Both the position numbers and the translations under genes were made by a program. 64,000 nt of DNA from Micromonospora olivasterospora (GTDB taxonomy: Bacteria > Actinomycetota > Actinomycetes > Mycobacteriales > Micromonosporaceae). Within the stretch, counting starts at the first letter, position 1; every line of letters begins with the position of its first letter. The DNA lies in the NCBI RefSeq assembly GCF_007830265.1, contig NZ_VLKE01000001.1:4030001-4094000 (forward strand). Reading direction: 5' to 3'. Below are positions 5,621 through 22,428 of this stretch, one piece after another. The notes beneath the pieces are model-generated. The model did no database searches. It was not told where the DNA came from and saw nothing but the letters and a program-made list of their open reading frames with translations.

Positions 5621-8062
5621 GTGCACTTCCCCCCGGGCATGGTCGCGGTCGCGGTGCTGAGTGTGCTCGTCGCCGTCGGCGCCACCGCGCTGCTGGCCCT
5701 GGCCGTCCGGCGGCTCGGGTGGCCCTGCCGGCAGGTGGCCGCGCTGGTCGCCGCGGCGGCGGCGGTCGCGCTGGCCAGCCTGCTGGTCGGGCTCGCCGCC
5801 ACGCTGGGCGTCGGGCTCGACGCGAGCCGGCCGGGGCACCGCATCACCTGGGTGACCCTCGTCTCGGCCGGCACCGCCACGAGCGCGCTGGCGTTCGGCG
5901 CGGGGCTGCTGCGGCTGCGCGGCACCCCGAACACCTCGGCGGCCAGGGCGCGGCTGCTCCTGGACGGCCTGATCGTGGCCACCGCGCTGTGGTTCGTCGG
6001 CTGGGTGGTCCTCTCCGAGCCGACCCGGCTGCTCGGCGCCGCCACGCCGCCGGCGTGCGTGCCGACCCTGCTGGCCACCCTCGGCGCCGCGCTCACCGTC
6101 GGGCTCGCCGTGGTGGTGCTCCTGCGGGCCGTCCCGCCCCGCCGCCGGCTGGCCTGGCTCGGCGCCGGGATGGCCGCGGTGACCTGCGGCGGGCTCGGCG
6201 TCGCCGCGGGGCTCCTGCAGGCCCTGCCGGGCATGGTGCTCGCCGGCGCCGGGCTGCTCGCGGCCGGCTTGCTGGCCGCCGCCCTGGCCATGCACGGCTC
6301 CGCCCCGACCGGTGAGATCGAGGTCGACCTGATCCGCCGGGACGGCGCGTACGCCTTCGTGCCGATGCTCGCGATGGCGGCGTCGGCGATGTACCACCTG
6401 CTCGAGGGCGGCCGGTTCGACGCCCTGGGCATCGTCGCCGGCAGTGTCGAGGGCTTCGCGCTGGTGGCCCGGCAGCAACTGACCCTCAACGACGTGCGCG
6501 GGTACGCGGGCCGGCTGGCCGCGCGGGAGGCGCACTTCCGGGAGTTGGCGCACACGGACGCGCTGACCGGCCTGGCCAACCGGCGGGGTCTGCTGCGTGC
6601 CCTGCACCGGGCCGCCGCCTCGGGCGCCCCGCGCGTGCTGCTCGGCCTGGACCTGGACGGCTTCAAGAACGTCAACGACATGCGCGGGCACGACGTCGGC
6701 GACAACGTGCTGGCGGAGGTCGGCCGGCGGCTGCGCGGCAACCTGCGGCCCGGCGACCTGGCGGCCCGGCTCGGCGGGGACGAGTTCGCGGTGCTCATGC
6801 CCGGCCGGGAGGCCGACGCGGGCCGGGTCGCGCAGCGGCTGCTCGGGGTGCTCGGCCAGCCGTACGAGCAGCCGGACGGGCCGGTCTTCCTCTCGGCCAG
6901 CATCGGGGTGGCCGCCCAGTCCGACGACCCGGACGTGGAGCTGCTGCTGCGCAACGCCGACCTGGCCCTGCGCTACGCCAAGCAGCGCGGCAAGGACCGG
7001 ATCGAGCACTACGACGCCGCGTACGACCAGCGGCTGCGCCGCCGGGCGACGCTGGAGCACGAGCTGCGTGGCGCGATCGAGCGCGACGAGCTGCGGCTCG
7101 CGTTCCAGCCGGTGGCCGCGCTGCCGTCGGTGCGCCCGGTCGGGGCGGAGGCGCTGCTGCGCTGGCACCATCCGGAGCTGGGCAACGTCGGCCCGGACGA
7201 GTTCATCCCGCTCGCCGAGGAGTGCGGGATGATCTCCAAGCTCGGCGCGTGGGTGCTGCACCAGGCGTGCTGGCAGCTGTCCCGCTGGCTGGCCGACGGG
7301 CACGACGTCTGGGTCTCGGTGAACGTCTCGCCCCGCGAGCTGCACGCCCCGGAGTACGTGGTCCAGGTCGCCGACGCGCTGCGCGCCCACCACGTGCCCC
7401 CGCAGCGGCTGGTGCTGGAGGTCACCGAGCACGCCGTCGCCACCGACCTGGACGAGCTGATCCGGCGGCTGACCGCGCTGCGGCGCACCGGCGTCCGGAT
7501 CGCGCTGGACGACTTCGGGGCCGGATACTCGTCCCTGGGGCAGCTGCGCCGCCTCCCGATCGACATCCTCAAGATCGACCACAGTCTGGTCGCGGAGCAC
7601 GAGCCGGTCCGCCCGGCGGACGCCGACGGCCCGGCCTTCGCCCCGATGGTCGACATCGTGATGCGGCTCGGTCACCAGCTCGGCCTGCAGGTGATCGCCG
7701 AGGGGGTCACCACGCCGGCGGAACTGGCCGCGGTGGTCGCCGCCGGCTGCCGGTTCGGCCAGGGCGCGCTCTTCGGCTGGGGGGTGCCGGCGGAGCACCT
7801 GGAGGCGATGCTCGACGCGGCCACGTCGCCCGGCGCGCGTCCGGCCCCCGCCGTCCCGCCAGGCGCTCGTCCCGACCCGGCCGTGACCTCTGCCACGCCG
7901 CGGCCCCGGCCGGCCTCCCCAGCGCCCACGCGACGTCCCGCCGAGGGCCCGTCCGCGCAGTTCGGGGCAGGTGTCGACGGCGCGTCGCCGGGCGCCACGC
8001 CGACGTCCGTCAACCAAAATGTGGGATCAGTTGACTCATCGCGTGAGATGCGTCAGGCTTGA
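5621..8062 (+). CDS. Membrane-anchored GGDEF-EAL protein (c-di-GMP cyclase/phosphodiesterase)
   Basis: 813 residues. The N-terminal 270 residues hold about seven hydrophobic segments, a membrane sensor part. Then comes a GGDEF domain ([25 protein letters not shown] at about residue 390) with an intact inhibitory RxxD (RPGD five residues upstream). The EAL domain has AEALLRWHH, ExTE (EVTEHAV), [17 protein letters not shown] and QGALFGWG. In the AEGVE loop the last Glu is Thr (AEGVTT), otherwise the phosphodiesterase residues look intact, so both activities are possible. The C-terminal 70 residues are a Pro/Ala-rich tail. The GTG start is favoured because CAGAGT lies 6 bases before it (leaderless pattern); an ATG at 5639 is the alternative. 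The ilvB promoter lies inside its last 30 bases. Confidence 0.9.
8031..8059 (+). promoter_or_regulatory. Promoter of the ilvBNC leader
   Basis: TTGACT (8031-8036), a 17-base spacer, then CAGGCT (8054-8059). The predicted transcript starts at about 8066-8067, at the ATG of the leader peptide. It overlaps the 3' end of the GGDEF-EAL coding sequence. Confidence 0.7.
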
Positions 8063-8066
8063 CCGC

Positions 8067-8102
8067 ATGCCGTCGAACCTGTCTCCGCGAGTACTTACCT
8101 GA
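8067..8102 (+). CDS. Leader peptide of the ilvB attenuator ([11 protein letters not shown])
   Basis: Eleven codons plus TGA. The last part uses CGA-GTA-CTT (Arg-Val-Leu), three codons that are rare in this GC-rich genome, just before the stop. The stop overlaps the 5' arm of an 11-bp hairpin. The ATG is 7 bases after the CAGGCT -10 hexamer, so the mRNA probably starts at or next to the ATG. A GTG at 8043 in the same frame could give a longer peptide but lies inside the promoter. The role is inferred: stalling at Val/Leu codons when charged tRNA is scarce. Confidence 0.65.
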
Positions 8103-8162
8103 GCGCACTCTCCCCGTCGAGAGTGCGCTGGCCCCGTGCGTGAAGCACGAGGGCCGTTTTTA
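8102..8162 (+). terminator. Attenuator hairpins upstream of ilvB
   Basis: First hairpin: perfect 11-bp stem, arms 8102-8112 and 8119-8129, loop CCCGTC. Second hairpin: GGCCC-CGTGC (8130-8139), loop GTGAA, GCACG-A-GGGCC (8145-8155), followed by GTTTTTA, a classic intrinsic terminator. The two stems abut, so a ribosome stalled in the leader can change which forms. About 90 bases remain from the terminator to the ilvB ATG. Confidence 0.75.
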
Positions 8163-8251: not shown

Positions 8252-10134
8252 ATGACGCGACCCACGCCAGAGACACTCGCCCACTCCGCCAGGCGGGCCC
8301 GCACCGCCGCCGAGCCGACGACCGACGCCGACCGGGCCGCGCCGGCCGCCCGCCCCGCCGCCACCGCCCCGGCGGTACGGCAGTCCGAGCCCGTCCAGGT
8401 CTCCGGGGCCGGCTCCCTCGTGCGGTCTCTCGAGGCGCTCGGCGTGGACGTCGTCTTCGGCATCCCGGGCGGGGCGATCCTCCCGGCGTACGACCCGCTC
8501 TACGACTCCACCGTCCGGCACATCCTGGTCCGGCACGAGCAGGGCGCCGGCCACGCGGCCACGGGGTACGCGCAGGCCACCGGCAAGGTCGGGGTCTGCA
8601 TGGCCACCTCCGGCCCCGGCGCGACGAACCTGGTCACCCCGATCGCCGACGCGTACATGGACTCGGTGCCGATGGTGGCGATCACCGGCCAGGTCGCCCG
8701 GCCGGCGATCGGCACGGACGCCTTCCAGGAGGCCGACATCCAGGGCATCACCCTGCCGATCACCAAGCACAACTTCCTGGTGCAGACGGCCGAGGAGATC
8801 CCGCAGGTGCTCGCCGAGGCGTTCCACCTGGCCGCCACCGGGCGCCCCGGCCGGTCCTGGTGGACATCCCGAAGGACGTCCTCCAGGCGCAGACCACGTT
8901 CACCTGGCCGCCGACGCTGGACCTGCCCGGCTACCGGCCCACCCTGCACCCGCACGGCAAGCAGATCCGGGAGGCCGCCCGGCTGATGACCTCGGCCCGC
9001 CGCCCGGTGCTCTACGTCGGTGGCGGGGTGCTCAAGGCCGGGGCCACCGAGGGGCTGCGCCGGCTGGCCGAGCTGACCGGCATTCCGGTGGTCACCACCC
9101 TGATGGCGCTCGGCGCGTTCCCCGACTCGCACCGGCAGCACCTGGGCATGCCCGGCATGCACGGCACGGTCACGGCGGTCTACGGCCTGCAGCGGGCCGA
9201 CCTGATCGTGGCGCTGGGCGCCCGGTTCGACGACCGGGTCACCGGCCGGCTGGACACCTTCGCCCCGGACGCCGCCGTCGTGCACGCCGACATCGACCCG
9301 GCCGAGATCGGCAAGAACCGGCACGCGGACGTGCCGATCGTCGGCGACGCCCGGCACGTGATCGACGAGCTGATCGCCGCGGTCACCACCGAGCGGGCCG
9401 CCCACGAGCCGGCCGACCTCGCCGACTGGTGGAACCAGCTGGACGACCTGCGCCAGCGCTACCCGCTGGGGTACGAGGAGCCGGCCGACGGCACCCTGTC
9501 CCCGCAGTACGTGATCGAGCGGCTGGGCAAGATCGCCGGGCCGGACGCGATCTACGTCGCCGGGGTCGGGCAGCACCAGATGTGGGCCTCCCAGTTCATC
9601 TCGTACGAGAAGCCGTACACCTGGCTCAACTCCGGCGGCCTCGGCACGATGGGGTACGCGGTCCCGGCCGCGATGGGCGCCAAGGTGGGCCAGCCGGACA
9701 CGGTGGTCTGGGCGGTGGACGGCGACGGCTGCTTCCAGATGACCAACCAGGAGCTGGCCACCTGCGCCCTGGAGGGCATTCCCGTCAAGATCGCCGTGAT
9801 CAACAACGGCAACCTCGGGATGGTCCGGCAGTGGCAGACGCTGTTCTACAACGAGCGGTACTCCAACACCGAGCTCGGCACCCACAAGCACCGGATCCCG
9901 GACTTCGTCAAGCTCGCCGAGGCGCTCGGCTGCGTCGGCCTGCGCTGTGAGAACGCCGCCGACGTCGACAAGACCATCGAGGCGGCCATGGCGATCAACG
10001 ACGCCCCCGTCGTGATCGACTTCGTGGTCGGCAAGGACGCGATGGTGTGGCCGATGGTGGCCGCCGGCACCAGCAACGACGAGATCATGTTCGCCCGGGG
10101 CGTCCGCCCCGCGTTCGACGAGGACGAACTCTAA
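8252..10134 (+). CDS. ilvB: Acetolactate synthase large subunit (one-base frameshift near 8851)
   Basis: The first committed step of Val/Leu/Ile synthesis: condensation of pyruvate with pyruvate or 2-ketobutyrate, using ThDP, FAD and Mg. The N-terminal frame gives [19 protein letters not shown], the catalytic Glu region ([14 protein letters not shown]) and [17 protein letters not shown]. At about 8849-8853 the frame breaks: one missing C turns [13 protein letters not shown] into [12 protein letters not shown]. The rest is intact in the next frame, including the ThDP motif DGDGCFQM and [14 protein letters not shown]. With the base restored it is 627 residues, with a 45-residue Ala/Pro-rich N-terminal extension. 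The ATG at 8252 is preceded by GAAGG. It is followed 2 bases later by ilvN. The break is probably a sequencing error, since a true lesion would cause auxotrophy unless a paralogue exists. Confidence 0.9.
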
Positions 10135-20527: not shown

Positions 20528-20699
20528 TGCCGCAGTCGTGTTTCGCCCTGGTGGCGGCCGGGTGAACTGTGAAGCTGATCACCTGCGGCGGGCTCCGCCC
20601 GGGCGCGCCGGCCTGATCGGGCGAGGCAACGCTCCGTGACCGTCCCGGCATGTGGGTTGACCCTCCCAGATCCGGGGGAGGGGTGGCACAGTAGCGAGC

Positions 20700-20732
20700 G
20701 TGACTCGCACCGTAGTCATTATCGCCAGCTAG
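20700..20732 (+). CDS. Leader peptide of the citramalate synthase attenuator (MTRTVVIIAS)
   Basis: Ten codons plus TAG: GTG ACT CGC ACC GTA GTC ATT ATC GCC AGC. The central Val-Val-Ile-Ile run uses the rare codons GTA and ATT. CACAGT (20687-20692) lies 7 bases before the GTG, so a leaderless start is likely; no good -35 is at the right distance (TTGACC at 20657 is too far). A CCCTCCC/GGGAGGG inverted repeat sits between. Role inferred from position and codon content. Confidence 0.65.
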   Translation: MTRTVVIIAS

Positions 20733-20792
20733 CGCGCCCGGCCTACCCCCGCCGAGCGCGCAGACCTCCCGCATCCGCGGGGGGTCTTTTTG
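20732..20792 (+). terminator. Attenuator hairpins upstream of the citramalate synthase gene
   Basis: First hairpin: GCGCGC (20732-20737) with GCGCGC (20756-20761), and inner GGC/GCC. Second: an 11-bp stem AGACCTCCCGC (20762-20772) with 20777-20787 (one G-T pair), loop ATCC, followed by TTTTTG. This is an intrinsic terminator 53 bases before the structural gene start. Confidence 0.75.
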
Positions 20793-20844
20793 TTGGTCCG
20801 TGTCGCCGCCGCCCACCTGCCCCACCGCGCCTGAAAGGACTCCC

Positions 20845-22428
20845 ATGACGTTCCAGGTCTACGACACGACGCTGCGCGACGGCGCCCAGCGTGAAGGGCT
20901 CACCTACTCCGTCGTCGACAAGCTGGCCGTGGCCCGGCTGCTGGACGAGTTCGGCGTCGGCTTCATCGAGGGCGGCTGGCCGGGGGCGGTGCCGAAGGAC
21001 ACCGAGTTCTTCCGGCGCGCCCGCACGGAGCTGAAGCTGAAGCACGCCGTGCTGGTCGCGTTCGGCGCCACCCGCAAGGCCGGCGTGGCGGTGGCCGAGG
21101 ACCCGCAGGTCCGCGGGCTGCTCGACGCGCAGACCCCGGCCGTCGCGCTGGTCGCCAAGGCCGACCTGCGACACGTCGAGCGGGCGCTGCGCACCACCCC
21201 CGCAGAGAACCTGGCGATGATCCGTGACACCGTGGCGCACCTGGTCGCCGAGGGCCGGCGCGTCTTCGTCGACGGGGAGCACTTCTTCGACGGCTACCGG
21301 CACGACCCGGCGTACGGGGCCGCGGTGGTGGAGACGGCGCTGGCCGCCGGCGCCGAGCGGTTCGTCCTCTGCGACACCAACGGCGGGATGCTGCCCTCCC
21401 AGGTCACCGCCGCGATCGCCGACCTGACCGCGCGCACCGGCGTGGCGCCGGAGCTGCTCGGCATCCACTGCCAGAACGACACCGCCTGCGCGGTGGCCAA
21501 CACGATCGCCGCCGTCGAGGCCGGCGTCCGCCACGCCCAGGGCACCGCCAACGGGTACGGCGAGCGCCCCGGCAACGCCGACATCTTCGCCGTCGTCGCC
21601 AACCTGCAGCTCAAGCTCGGGATGCCCGTCCTGCCCGAGGGCTGCCTGGAACAGATGGTGCGGGTCTCCCACGCCATCGCCGAGATCGCCAACATCGCCC
21701 CCGACACCCACCAGGCCTACGTCGGGGCCGCCGCCTTCGCCCACAAGGCGGGGCTGCACGCGAGCGCGATCAAGGTGGATCCGCTGCTCTACAACCACGT
21801 CGACCCGAGCGTGGTGGGCAACGACATGCGGATCCTGGTCACCGAGATGGCCGGCCGGGCCAGCGTCGAGCTGAAGAGCCGCGAGCTGGGCCTGGACCTG
21901 GCCGGCCATCCGGAGGCGTTGTCCACGGTCACCAAGCGGGTCAAGGAGATGGAGGCCGGCGGCTGGTCGTTCGAGGCGGCGGACGCCTCGTTCGAGCTGC
22001 TGGTCCGCTCCGAGCTGCCCGAGGGCGCGCCGGCCCGGCCGTTCGCGCTGGAGTCGTACCGGGTGCTGGTGGAGCACCGCGAGGACGGCGCGGTGGTCTC
22101 CGAGGCCACGGTGAAGATCCGGGTACGCGGCGAGCGGGTGATCGCCACGGCCGAGGGCAACGGCCCGGTCAACGCCCTGGACGAGGCGCTGCGGGCCGGG
22201 CTGTCCCGGCACTACCCGGAGCTGCGCGACTTCGAGTTGGCCGACTACAAGGTGCGCATCCTGGAGGGCAGCAGCGGCACCGGCGCGGTGACCCGGGTAC
22301 TGGTGGAGACCGCCGACGGCGCGGGCCGCGACTGGACGACCGTGGGGGTGCACCCCAACGTCGTCGAGGCGTCCTGGCACGCGCTGGTCGATGCCCTCAC
22401 GTACGGCCTCGACCGCACCCGGGTGTAG
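20845..22428 (+). CDS. cimA: Citramalate synthase (LeuA-related, CimA type)
   Basis: 527 residues. It condenses pyruvate and acetyl-CoA to citramalate, a threonine-independent entry to 2-ketobutyrate and isoleucine; a homocitrate/isopropylmalate role is less likely. HMGL-like domain: VYDTTLRDGAQREGLTYSV, DGEHFFDGYRHDPAY, CDTNGGMLP, GIHCQNDTACAVANTIAAVEAG, GTANGYGERPGNAD. The C-terminal LeuA dimer domain is regulatory (YRVLVEHREDGAVVSEATVKI, AEGNGPVNALDEALR), the ligand probably isoleucine. ATG 20845 follows GAAAGGA. The attenuator with Val/Ile codons supports an isoleucine pathway role. It ends 3 bases from the convergent EEP gene. Confidence 0.9.
   Translation: MTFQVYDTTLRDGAQREGLTYSVVDKLAVARLLDEFGVGFIEGGWPGAVPKDTEFFRRARTELKLKHAVLVAFGATRKAGVAVAEDPQVRGLLDAQTPAVALVAKADLRHVERALRTTPAENLAMIRDTVAHLVAEGRRVFVDGEHFFDGYRHDPAYGAAVVETALAAGAERFVLCDTNGGMLPSQVTAAIADLTARTGVAPELLGIHCQNDTACAVANTIAAVEAGVRHAQGTANGYGERPGNADIFAVVANLQLKLGMPVLPEGCLEQMVRVSHAIAEIANIAPDTHQAYVGAAAFAHKAGLHASAIKVDPLLYNHVDPSVVGNDMRILVTEMAGRASVELKSRELGLDLAGHPEALSTVTKRVKEMEAGGWSFEAADASFELLVRSELPEGAPARPFALESYRVLVEHREDGAVVSEATVKIRVRGERVIATAEGNGPVNALDEALRAGLSRHYPELRDFELADYKVRILEGSSGTGAVTRVLVETADGAGRDWTTVGVHPNVVEASWHALVDALTYGLDRTRV

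Follow-up and report, generated by a model that had tools for sequence, protein, structure and literature searches.

Transcription of cimA, the citramalate synthase gene of Micromonospora olivasterospora, is probably controlled by an isoleucyl-tRNA-sensing, translation-coupled attenuator, as judged from the 64-kb stretch of DNA analyzed here (the window) and from the corresponding regions of relatives. That an isoleucine-sensing attenuator of some kind lies upstream of the gene is, on the same grounds, very likely. Comparison among relatives establishes, at the level of sequence, the components of this unit: a leader open reading frame (ORF), a tandem Ile-Ile sensor, a hairpin at the end of the ORF (hairpin A), an intrinsic terminator, and two narrow ranges of distance among these parts.

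Leader unit upstream of cimA

An AhpC/TSA-type gene lies divergently, just upstream of the cimA leader. The components of the leader unit and the gene that it is predicted to regulate are as follows:

20650..20668, + strand: conserved upstream element ATGTGGGTTGACCCTCCCA, at a constant distance to the leader GTG in cimA orthologs
20687..20692, + strand: -10-like box CACAGT, 7 nt before the GTG (in relatives, often CAGAGT or CAAAGT)
20700..20732, + strand: leader peptide ORF MTRTVVIIAS*, recognized from the sequence, with conserved start, frame, Ile-Ile, and stop
20732..20761, + strand: hairpin A (proposed antiterminator), predicted by RNAfold, its first paired base being the third base of the TAG
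20762..20791, + strand: intrinsic terminator with an 11-bp stem, following hairpin A without a spacer; T-run at 20787-20791 (TTTTT)
20845..22428, + strand: cimA, citramalate synthase (the putatively regulated gene), NCBIfam TIGR00977 at 598.5 bits (cut-off, 450)

The leader codons read GTG ACT CGC ACC GTA GTC ATT ATC GCC AGC and are followed by the stop codon TAG at 20730-20732, with the tandem Ile codons ATT ATC at 20718-20723. The arms of the terminator stem, AGACCTCCCGC and GCGGGGGGTCT, occupy 20762-20772 and 20777-20787, and an interval of 53 bases (20792-20844) separates the terminator from the ATG of cimA at 20845. RNAfold predicts both hairpin A and the terminator in the cimA leader, and a criteria-based scan detects three terminator-like sites in the 64-kb window, two of which are those of the cimA and ilvB leaders. 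The preliminary description of this locus, made from the letters alone, is borne out in these respects: its GTG-initiated, 10-codon ORF with GTA-GTC-ATT-ATC before cimA matches the sequence base for base, CACAGT is present 7 bases upstream of the GTG (20687-20692), the first hairpin begins at the stop codon (more precisely, at its last base, 20732), and an 11-bp terminator with a T-run ends 53 bases before the structural gene. Its assignment of that gene to citramalate synthase also stands, the TIGR00977 score of 598.5 bits exceeding the cut-off of 450. Searches of the whole window with Rfam 15 at gathering scores return three tRNAs only, with no family on the leader, and at a relaxed threshold the best match in the leader region reaches 19.6 bits against a gathering score of 58.8.

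The most plausible reading of CACAGT is a -10 box, in which case the transcript would start at or next to the GTG and the leader ORF would be leaderless; we infer this from the spacing and conservation of the box, together with the leaderless leader ORFs (IlvL) of Streptomyces lividans as described in PMC8079986. By eye, no canonical -35 element is seen upstream of the cimA leader. The hexamer TTGACC at 20657 was considered for this role and rejected: it lies 24 nt from CACAGT and is absent from those relatives whose upstream sequences were inspected for it. The upstream element at 20650..20668, which is less well kept beyond the genus Micromonospora, is a possible operator or part of a promoter. 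Its ATGTGGGAT recurs 5′ of the ilvB leader (8019-8027), and ATGTGGG(A/T)T precedes both the cimA and the ilvB leaders (20650-20668 and 8019-8059), where it looks like the putative site of a common regulator, perhaps one of the IclR type. The region upstream of ilvB also contains TTGACT, 17 nt from CAGGCT.

The CimA protein is 94% identical to that of M. thermarum, and the gene occurs in all 101 of the 101 genus genomes and in 197 of the 200 family genomes searched. Both leuB (~15.6-16.6 kb) and ilvE (~16.8-17.9 kb) lie upstream of cimA in the window. A threonine dehydratase is also encoded in the genome, and cimA, therefore, need not be the sole route to isoleucine.

Conservation within the Micromonosporaceae

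The cimA intergenic regions of the Micromonosporaceae, whose comparison had been put forward as a check on the leader, show strong conservation of the whole unit across 88 loci. These were drawn from 92 loci compared, with one or a few per listed genus, and represent Micromonospora and 25 other genera. Left out were L031 and L076, whose CimA start motif was unmatched by the search pattern, and L064 and L067, whose leaders run beyond the usual stop (MTFLVLIITSERAGRS and MIHLVLIIRSERAGIA, respectively) and both contain Ile-Ile. Since the 88 leaders were chosen with terminator, stop, and start patterns, the presence of the parts is partly a matter of selection; these parts occur at each of the 90 loci that have a CimA start, apart from the odd stops in L064 and L067.

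Tandem Ile-Ile is present in 83/88 family leaders and a single Ile in the other five (5/88), and in 77 leaders the sole Ile residues are the two that precede the final two codons and the stop. The leader is 10 codons long in 76/88 cases and 8, 9, 11, or 12 codons long in the other 12, such that length varies in whole codons and the frame is kept. In the 76 leaders of ten codons, Val or Ala predominates at position 5 and Leu at position 6, making the Val-Val of the window a local variant. The preliminary prediction that cimA is tuned to both isoleucine and valine charge, thus, stands only for isoleucine: Ile-Ile is kept (83/88), and a role for Val in the sensor is rejected, as the Val codons are unconserved in family leaders, so that the charge sensed would be that of isoleucine and not of isoleucine/valine.

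The rarity that had been ascribed to ATT and GTA is confirmed in a sample of 85 long open frames (selected for their GC pattern within 400 kb of this genome), where ATT accounts for 38/1491 Ile codons and GTA for 108/4207 Val codons. ATT makes up 0/43 Ile codons in four window reading frames and 160/174 of the leader Ile codons in the 88 family leaders.

The geometry of the unit is likewise conserved. A hexamer of the form nAnnnT lies exactly 7 nt 5′ of the leader start in 83/88 family cimA leaders, whose start codons were picked partly with a -10-like box in mind. In 86/88 leaders, hairpin A starts from the last base of the stop codon, and in L074 and L086 it starts from the first; the terminator then follows hairpin A directly in 80/88 and after 1 nt in 8/88. 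The loop of hairpin A varies from 3 to 12 nt, and the terminator lies 30-119 nt from the (V/I)-(Y/F)-D motif near the CimA start. In an alignment of 49 leaders, two-sided changes occur in 6/15 consensus pairs (2/5 in hairpin A and 4/10 in the terminator), as read from alignment columns, which are preferred here to pair counts along each predicted stem because changes at inner positions in the latter may be register shifts; the terminator stem and its T-run are both conserved in the alignment. Covariation support for hairpin A is thin because its five consensus pairs are otherwise nearly invariant. One leader, L055, ends in TGA and has a U at the base of hairpin A, where leaders elsewhere have TAG and a C: a compensating C-to-U change.

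Sister leaders of ilvB and leuA

The ilvB gene of the window is preceded by a leader built on the same plan as that of cimA:

8067..8161, + strand: ilvB sister leader unit, with the leader ORF at 8067-8102
8102-8129, + strand: hairpin A of the ilvB leader, starting from the last base of the TGA
8130-8155, + strand: terminator of the ilvB leader, directly after hairpin A; T-run at 8157-8161

The resemblance between the cimA and ilvB layouts, already pointed out in the preliminary description, extends through the family: all 21 ilvB regions (the window's own plus 20 others) have a leader, a hairpin at the stop codon, and an abutting terminator. The encoded peptides end in Val-Leu plus one or two residues in 21/21 cases. 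Hairpin A begins at the third stop base in 15/21 and within 3 nt of it in the rest, and its distance to the terminator is 0 nt in 11/21 and 1 nt in 10/21 (from a survey of gaps of 0-3 nt and of stable-hairpin pairs only). The consensus of 20 ilvB leaders also displays a -10 box ~7 nt before the leader start. At one locus, from another class, the same two hairpins form part of a leuA leader, whose peptide is MSQNLLLT (Leu-Leu-Leu). Across these leaders, the sensor codons track the product, being Ile-Ile in the cimA leaders, Val-Leu in those of ilvB (21/21), and Leu-Leu-Leu in the one leuA leader.

The window's ilvB itself is split between two reading frames at 8845-8851 (TIGR00118, in two overlapping pieces), reflecting either a sequence error or a real frameshift. 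TIGR00118 scores above the cut-off in 58/61 family genomes, the genome of the window not being among them.

Distribution beyond the family

A covariance model built from 49 family leaders (R1) finds, in the window's own genome, the cimA leader only (E 2e-24; the next matches have E values of 3 and 9), and the ilvB leader of that genome is therefore missed by R1. In 296 genomes sampled from the class, R1 has matches in 180 and CimA (TIGR00977) is encoded in 236. An R1 match occurs anywhere in the genome in 175/236 genomes with cimA versus 5/60 without (Fisher p 2e-21, in a test that treats genomes as unrelated), and 61/236 of the class genomes with cimA have no R1 match. Each of the 29 best-match loci examined outside the window's genome (L102-L130) adjoins a cimA ortholog. 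Second R1 matches in some genomes, as well as the match in genome G286, precede ilvB (L131, L132, L139, L140, and L144, where ilvB was assigned by eye from a shared N-terminal sequence).

The abutting arrangement also recurs in the class: where both hairpins can be assigned, the gap is 0 nt in 25/30 cimA leaders and 1-3 nt in 5/30 (L108, L137, L141, L146, and L148), in a survey limited to gaps of 0-6 nt and whose 31 rows represent 30 distinct leaders (L115 being the same as L143). Misassigned cimA rows were excluded from this survey, namely, L112, L116, L117, L121, L130, and L142, which are of a Streptomyces type with a long insert in hairpin A, and also L104 and L105. Leaders of the Streptomyces type (L142, L112, and L116) have ~40 extra bases in hairpin A and R1 matches of ~135-147 nt, and their peptides end in IIGSRRAGPQ or similar.

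Among named relatives, R1 matches upstream in 60/80 cimA loci and in none of the other 20 (L240 is without upstream sequence). An ORF with Ile-Ile is present in 57 of those 60 matched loci, as found by an ORF picker that favored II frames, and the bearers include Amycolatopsis, Kutzneria, Pseudonocardia, Streptomyces, Nonomuraea, Actinomadura, Cellulosimicrobium, Kribbella, and Demequina. A distance of 4-8 nt separates the last Ile codon from hairpin A in 56/57 loci measured (searched up to 14 nt), with stop codon positions between -2 and +23 nt relative to the beginning of hairpin A. Given this narrow range despite a moving stop codon, it seems that the two spacings, Ile codon-hairpin A and hairpin A-terminator, are conserved more than the position of the stop.

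In a sample of the phylum, R1 matches 38/198 genomes in all, 28 of them outside the class and mostly weak. For 12 phylum loci, the downstream gene is ilvB in eight, leuA in one (by NCBIfam), and isocitrate lyase in one. In four of the phylum loci (L288, L291, L292, and L293), other sequence lies between the R1 match and ilvB, and at L290 and L298 ilvB was assigned by eye, outside the domain scan. The match before the isocitrate lyase gene (L294; E 2e-5) includes a leader-like frame that ends in FVAIA and may represent either a chance match or a new target.

The survey also turned up several departures from the cimA arrangement. At L135 and L138, both from one genus, further leaders (MFALVIIM and MFTPRIII) precede a short ORF that, by eye, resembles an ACT-type regulatory domain; a Pfam search with the 44-residue start of the L135 ORF gave no match. 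One family with genomes of 1.2-2.2 Mb (f27) keeps cimA and has an R1 match in 2/27 cimA genomes, and both cimA and R1 matches are lacking from the 20 listed genomes of another family (f2), which belongs to the order of the window.

Folding predictions and proposed mechanism

The 88 family leaders were folded under constraints representing three states: no ribosome, a stalled ribosome, and a ribosome on the stop codon. The formation of hairpin A amounts to 0.99, 1.0, and 0 in these states, respectively, and the mean probability of the terminator is 0.998, 0.9998, and 0.97; in the last of these states, the terminator falls below 0.9 in 5/88 leaders, including L080 at 0.01. Hairpin A and the terminator fold together, share no bases, and are 0-1 nt apart. 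In the stalled state, constrained folding of the 88 leaders reveals no base-pairing antiterminator that is exclusive with the terminator: the 5′ terminator arm has no partner above 0.02, and, when this arm is blocked, the 3′ arm pairs mainly with its own loop (0.29). The textbook antiterminator that the earlier label of "attenuator" had implied is, thus, not visible, as the two hairpins abut without having a base in common. With no ribosome, the ORF is a partial partner (0.27) of the 5′ terminator arm as long as the 3′ arm has yet to be transcribed, and it pairs with the 3′ arm (0.64) when the 5′ arm is blocked; both pairings require the ORF to be untranslated. Antitermination by hairpin A is not predicted by folding in these leaders, and the few exceptions occur in the wrong state for the model proposed here. 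As these folds show no antiterminator with shared bases, we regard the cimA leader as a variant of the ribosome-mediated attenuator.

An abutting hairpin by itself is weak evidence in one genome. A 400-kb control region elsewhere in the genome contains 17 terminator-like sites, three of which have a strong abutting hairpin; such hairpins arise by chance (3/17), and the argument therefore rests on conservation.

From the conserved parts, we infer a start site, a ribosome stall, a sign of the effect, and a steric step, which would combine as follows. (i) Transcription would start at or next to the GTG, and the leader ORF would be translated from a leaderless RNA. (ii) When tRNA-Ile is charged, the ribosome would clear both Ile codons and rest on the stop codon, masking the 5′ arm of hairpin A; with this arm masked, the terminator would form, and transcription would stop ~53 nt before cimA. 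(iii) When tRNA-Ile is uncharged, a stall at the Ile codons would halt the ribosome roughly half a footprint upstream of hairpin A, which would then be free to fold. (iv) Once folded, hairpin A would hinder the lowest pairs of the terminator from closing within the exit channel of RNA polymerase, and the polymerase would enter cimA. With the ribosome occlusion of 26 nt that is used for the Mycobacterium tuberculosis model (PMC13236596), a ribosome at the Ile codons would free all or most of hairpin A, and one at the stop codon would cover its 5′ arm. Hairpin A should oppose the terminator, since ribosome position would control hairpin A and derepression upon starvation is the only sensible sign. 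Given that the two hairpins share no bases, the abutting position is the handle that remains for hairpin A, and steric hindrance is proposed because no spacer separates it from the terminator. We advance this last step, steric antitermination by the abutting hairpin A, tentatively.

Alternative explanations

The main alternative to the steric step is that hairpin A serves as a pause hairpin, holding RNA polymerase so that the ribosome can catch up, with antitermination achieved by other means. The 5′ terminator arm extends 11 nt beyond the end of hairpin A, a spacing close to that of hairpin-stabilized pauses, but this role would leave read-through caused by a stalled ribosome unexplained, and we consider it unlikely. 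We also doubt that the leader contains a base-pairing antiterminator of the Corynebacterium ilvB-II type, in which the C-rich loop of hairpin A would pair with the 3′ shoulder of the terminator. By eye, ACCCCCGC of the window (loop and 3′ arm of hairpin A) can pair with GCGGGGGGU of the terminator, and, when the 5′ terminator arm is blocked and a ribosome occupies the stop codon, the 3′ arm does pair with the loop and 3′ arm of hairpin A (0.48 and 0.24 of its bases); loop-shoulder pairing is also how ilvB-II of Corynebacterium is modeled in PMC10272879. In the full RNA, however, the partner of the 3′ arm is the 5′ terminator arm (0.94 when the ribosome occupies the stop codon and 0.98 when it is stalled), and the loop-shoulder pairing barely beats that of shuffled loops (mean z of -0.4 in 56 leaders of the genus and -0.5 in 32 others). 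Moreover, it is a ribosome at the stop codon that would free this pairing, which is the wrong sign for isoleucine starvation.

Hairpin A and the terminator could also form, together, a strong early terminator, with the ORF as a by-product and little regulation by tRNA-Ile. Both hairpins are indeed predicted together unless a ribosome covers hairpin A, and double-adjacent hairpins also mark intrinsic termination sites (PMC8355165). We nevertheless find this quite improbable: it leaves unexplained Ile-Ile, the near-exclusive use of ATT, the frame-preserving lengths, and the narrow distance between the Ile codons and the hairpin, and it does not account for sensor codons that track the downstream gene. 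Finally, the presence of the divergent AhpC/TSA gene upstream might suggest that the region merely insulates this gene from cimA, or else encodes a small RNA or a peptide with another role, but the leader accompanies cimA in many families, and ilvB and one leuA have leaders of the same layout, making this explanation very improbable.

Relation to known leaders and implications

The enterobacterial trp, his, and ilv attenuators combine tandem codons for the product amino acid with an intrinsic terminator and use the position of the ribosome as the signal. The cimA leader shares these features with the classical systems and differs from them in that hairpin A does no more than adjoin the terminator, with no visible segment common to an antiterminator and the terminator, and in that the ORF is apparently leaderless. 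A hairpin upstream of a terminator was reportedly described in the S10 leader of E. coli by Zengel and Lindahl in 1996, and a study of S. clavuligerus is said to have found 150 premature transcripts. The tandem end-product codons and the terminator between ORF and gene are as expected of a ribosome-mediated attenuator; for the cimA leader, the -10 box ~7 nt upstream, together with hairpin A at the stop codon and its abutting terminator, places it among leaders of the ilvB type.

Leaders before actinobacterial ilvB were predicted in 2005 (Seliverstov et al., PMC1262725). They, too, have a short ORF with branched-chain codons (leaderless in S. lividans) and a terminator before the structural gene, and the 21 Micromonosporaceae ilvB leaders examined here contain the same abutting hairpin A as the cimA leaders. 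The cimA leader is set apart by its sensor, Ile-Ile, and by the gene that it would regulate. Codon changes in the S. coelicolor ilvB leader are without effect on regulation, as reported in PMC1262725; replacement of the LVVI codons of the M. tuberculosis ilvB1 leader abolished induction (PMC13236596). The models published for M. tuberculosis and Corynebacterium involve mutually exclusive structures, unlike the predicted folds of the cimA leader. Corynebacterium ilvB-II (PMC10272879) resembles the cimA leader in having a uORF, a P1 hairpin followed by a P2 terminator, and branched-chain codons. In ilvB-II, most of P1 lies within the uORF, and the P1 loop forms the antiterminator with the right shoulder of P2, whereas the cimA ORF of the family ends at the base of hairpin A, and the loop pairing of this hairpin is not clearly above that of shuffled loops. 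The LEU element before actinobacterial leuA also amounts to a leader peptide before an isopropylmalate-synthase-type gene, and its description in PMC1262725, as a pseudoknot whose base stem pairs Leu codons with a Shine-Dalgarno box, distinguishes it from the cimA leader, which has an intrinsic terminator. In the literature searched, we found no description of a cimA leader, although Lopatovskaya et al. (2010) might list one.

It is conceivable, if rather doubtful, that the cimA, ilvB, and leuA leaders represent a common actinobacterial attenuator chassis, in which steric antitermination would operate without competing base pairs and the exchange of codons (Ile-Ile, Val-Leu, or Leu-Leu-Leu) would retarget the amino acid sensed. 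The branched-chain leaders of actinobacteria have long been noted as a puzzle, being attenuator-like in appearance and nonclassical in behavior, and the arrangement described here turns this puzzle into a testable geometric hypothesis; if true, a steric chassis would help to explain why actinobacterial ilvB leaders misfit the classical scheme. For cimA, the conserved leader and terminator agree with the isoleucine role that the preliminary description had proposed for the gene. Citramalate synthase would gain a dedicated isoleucine-responsive switch in a large actinobacterial group, and such a switch supports CimA as an isoleucine enzyme in those actinobacteria.
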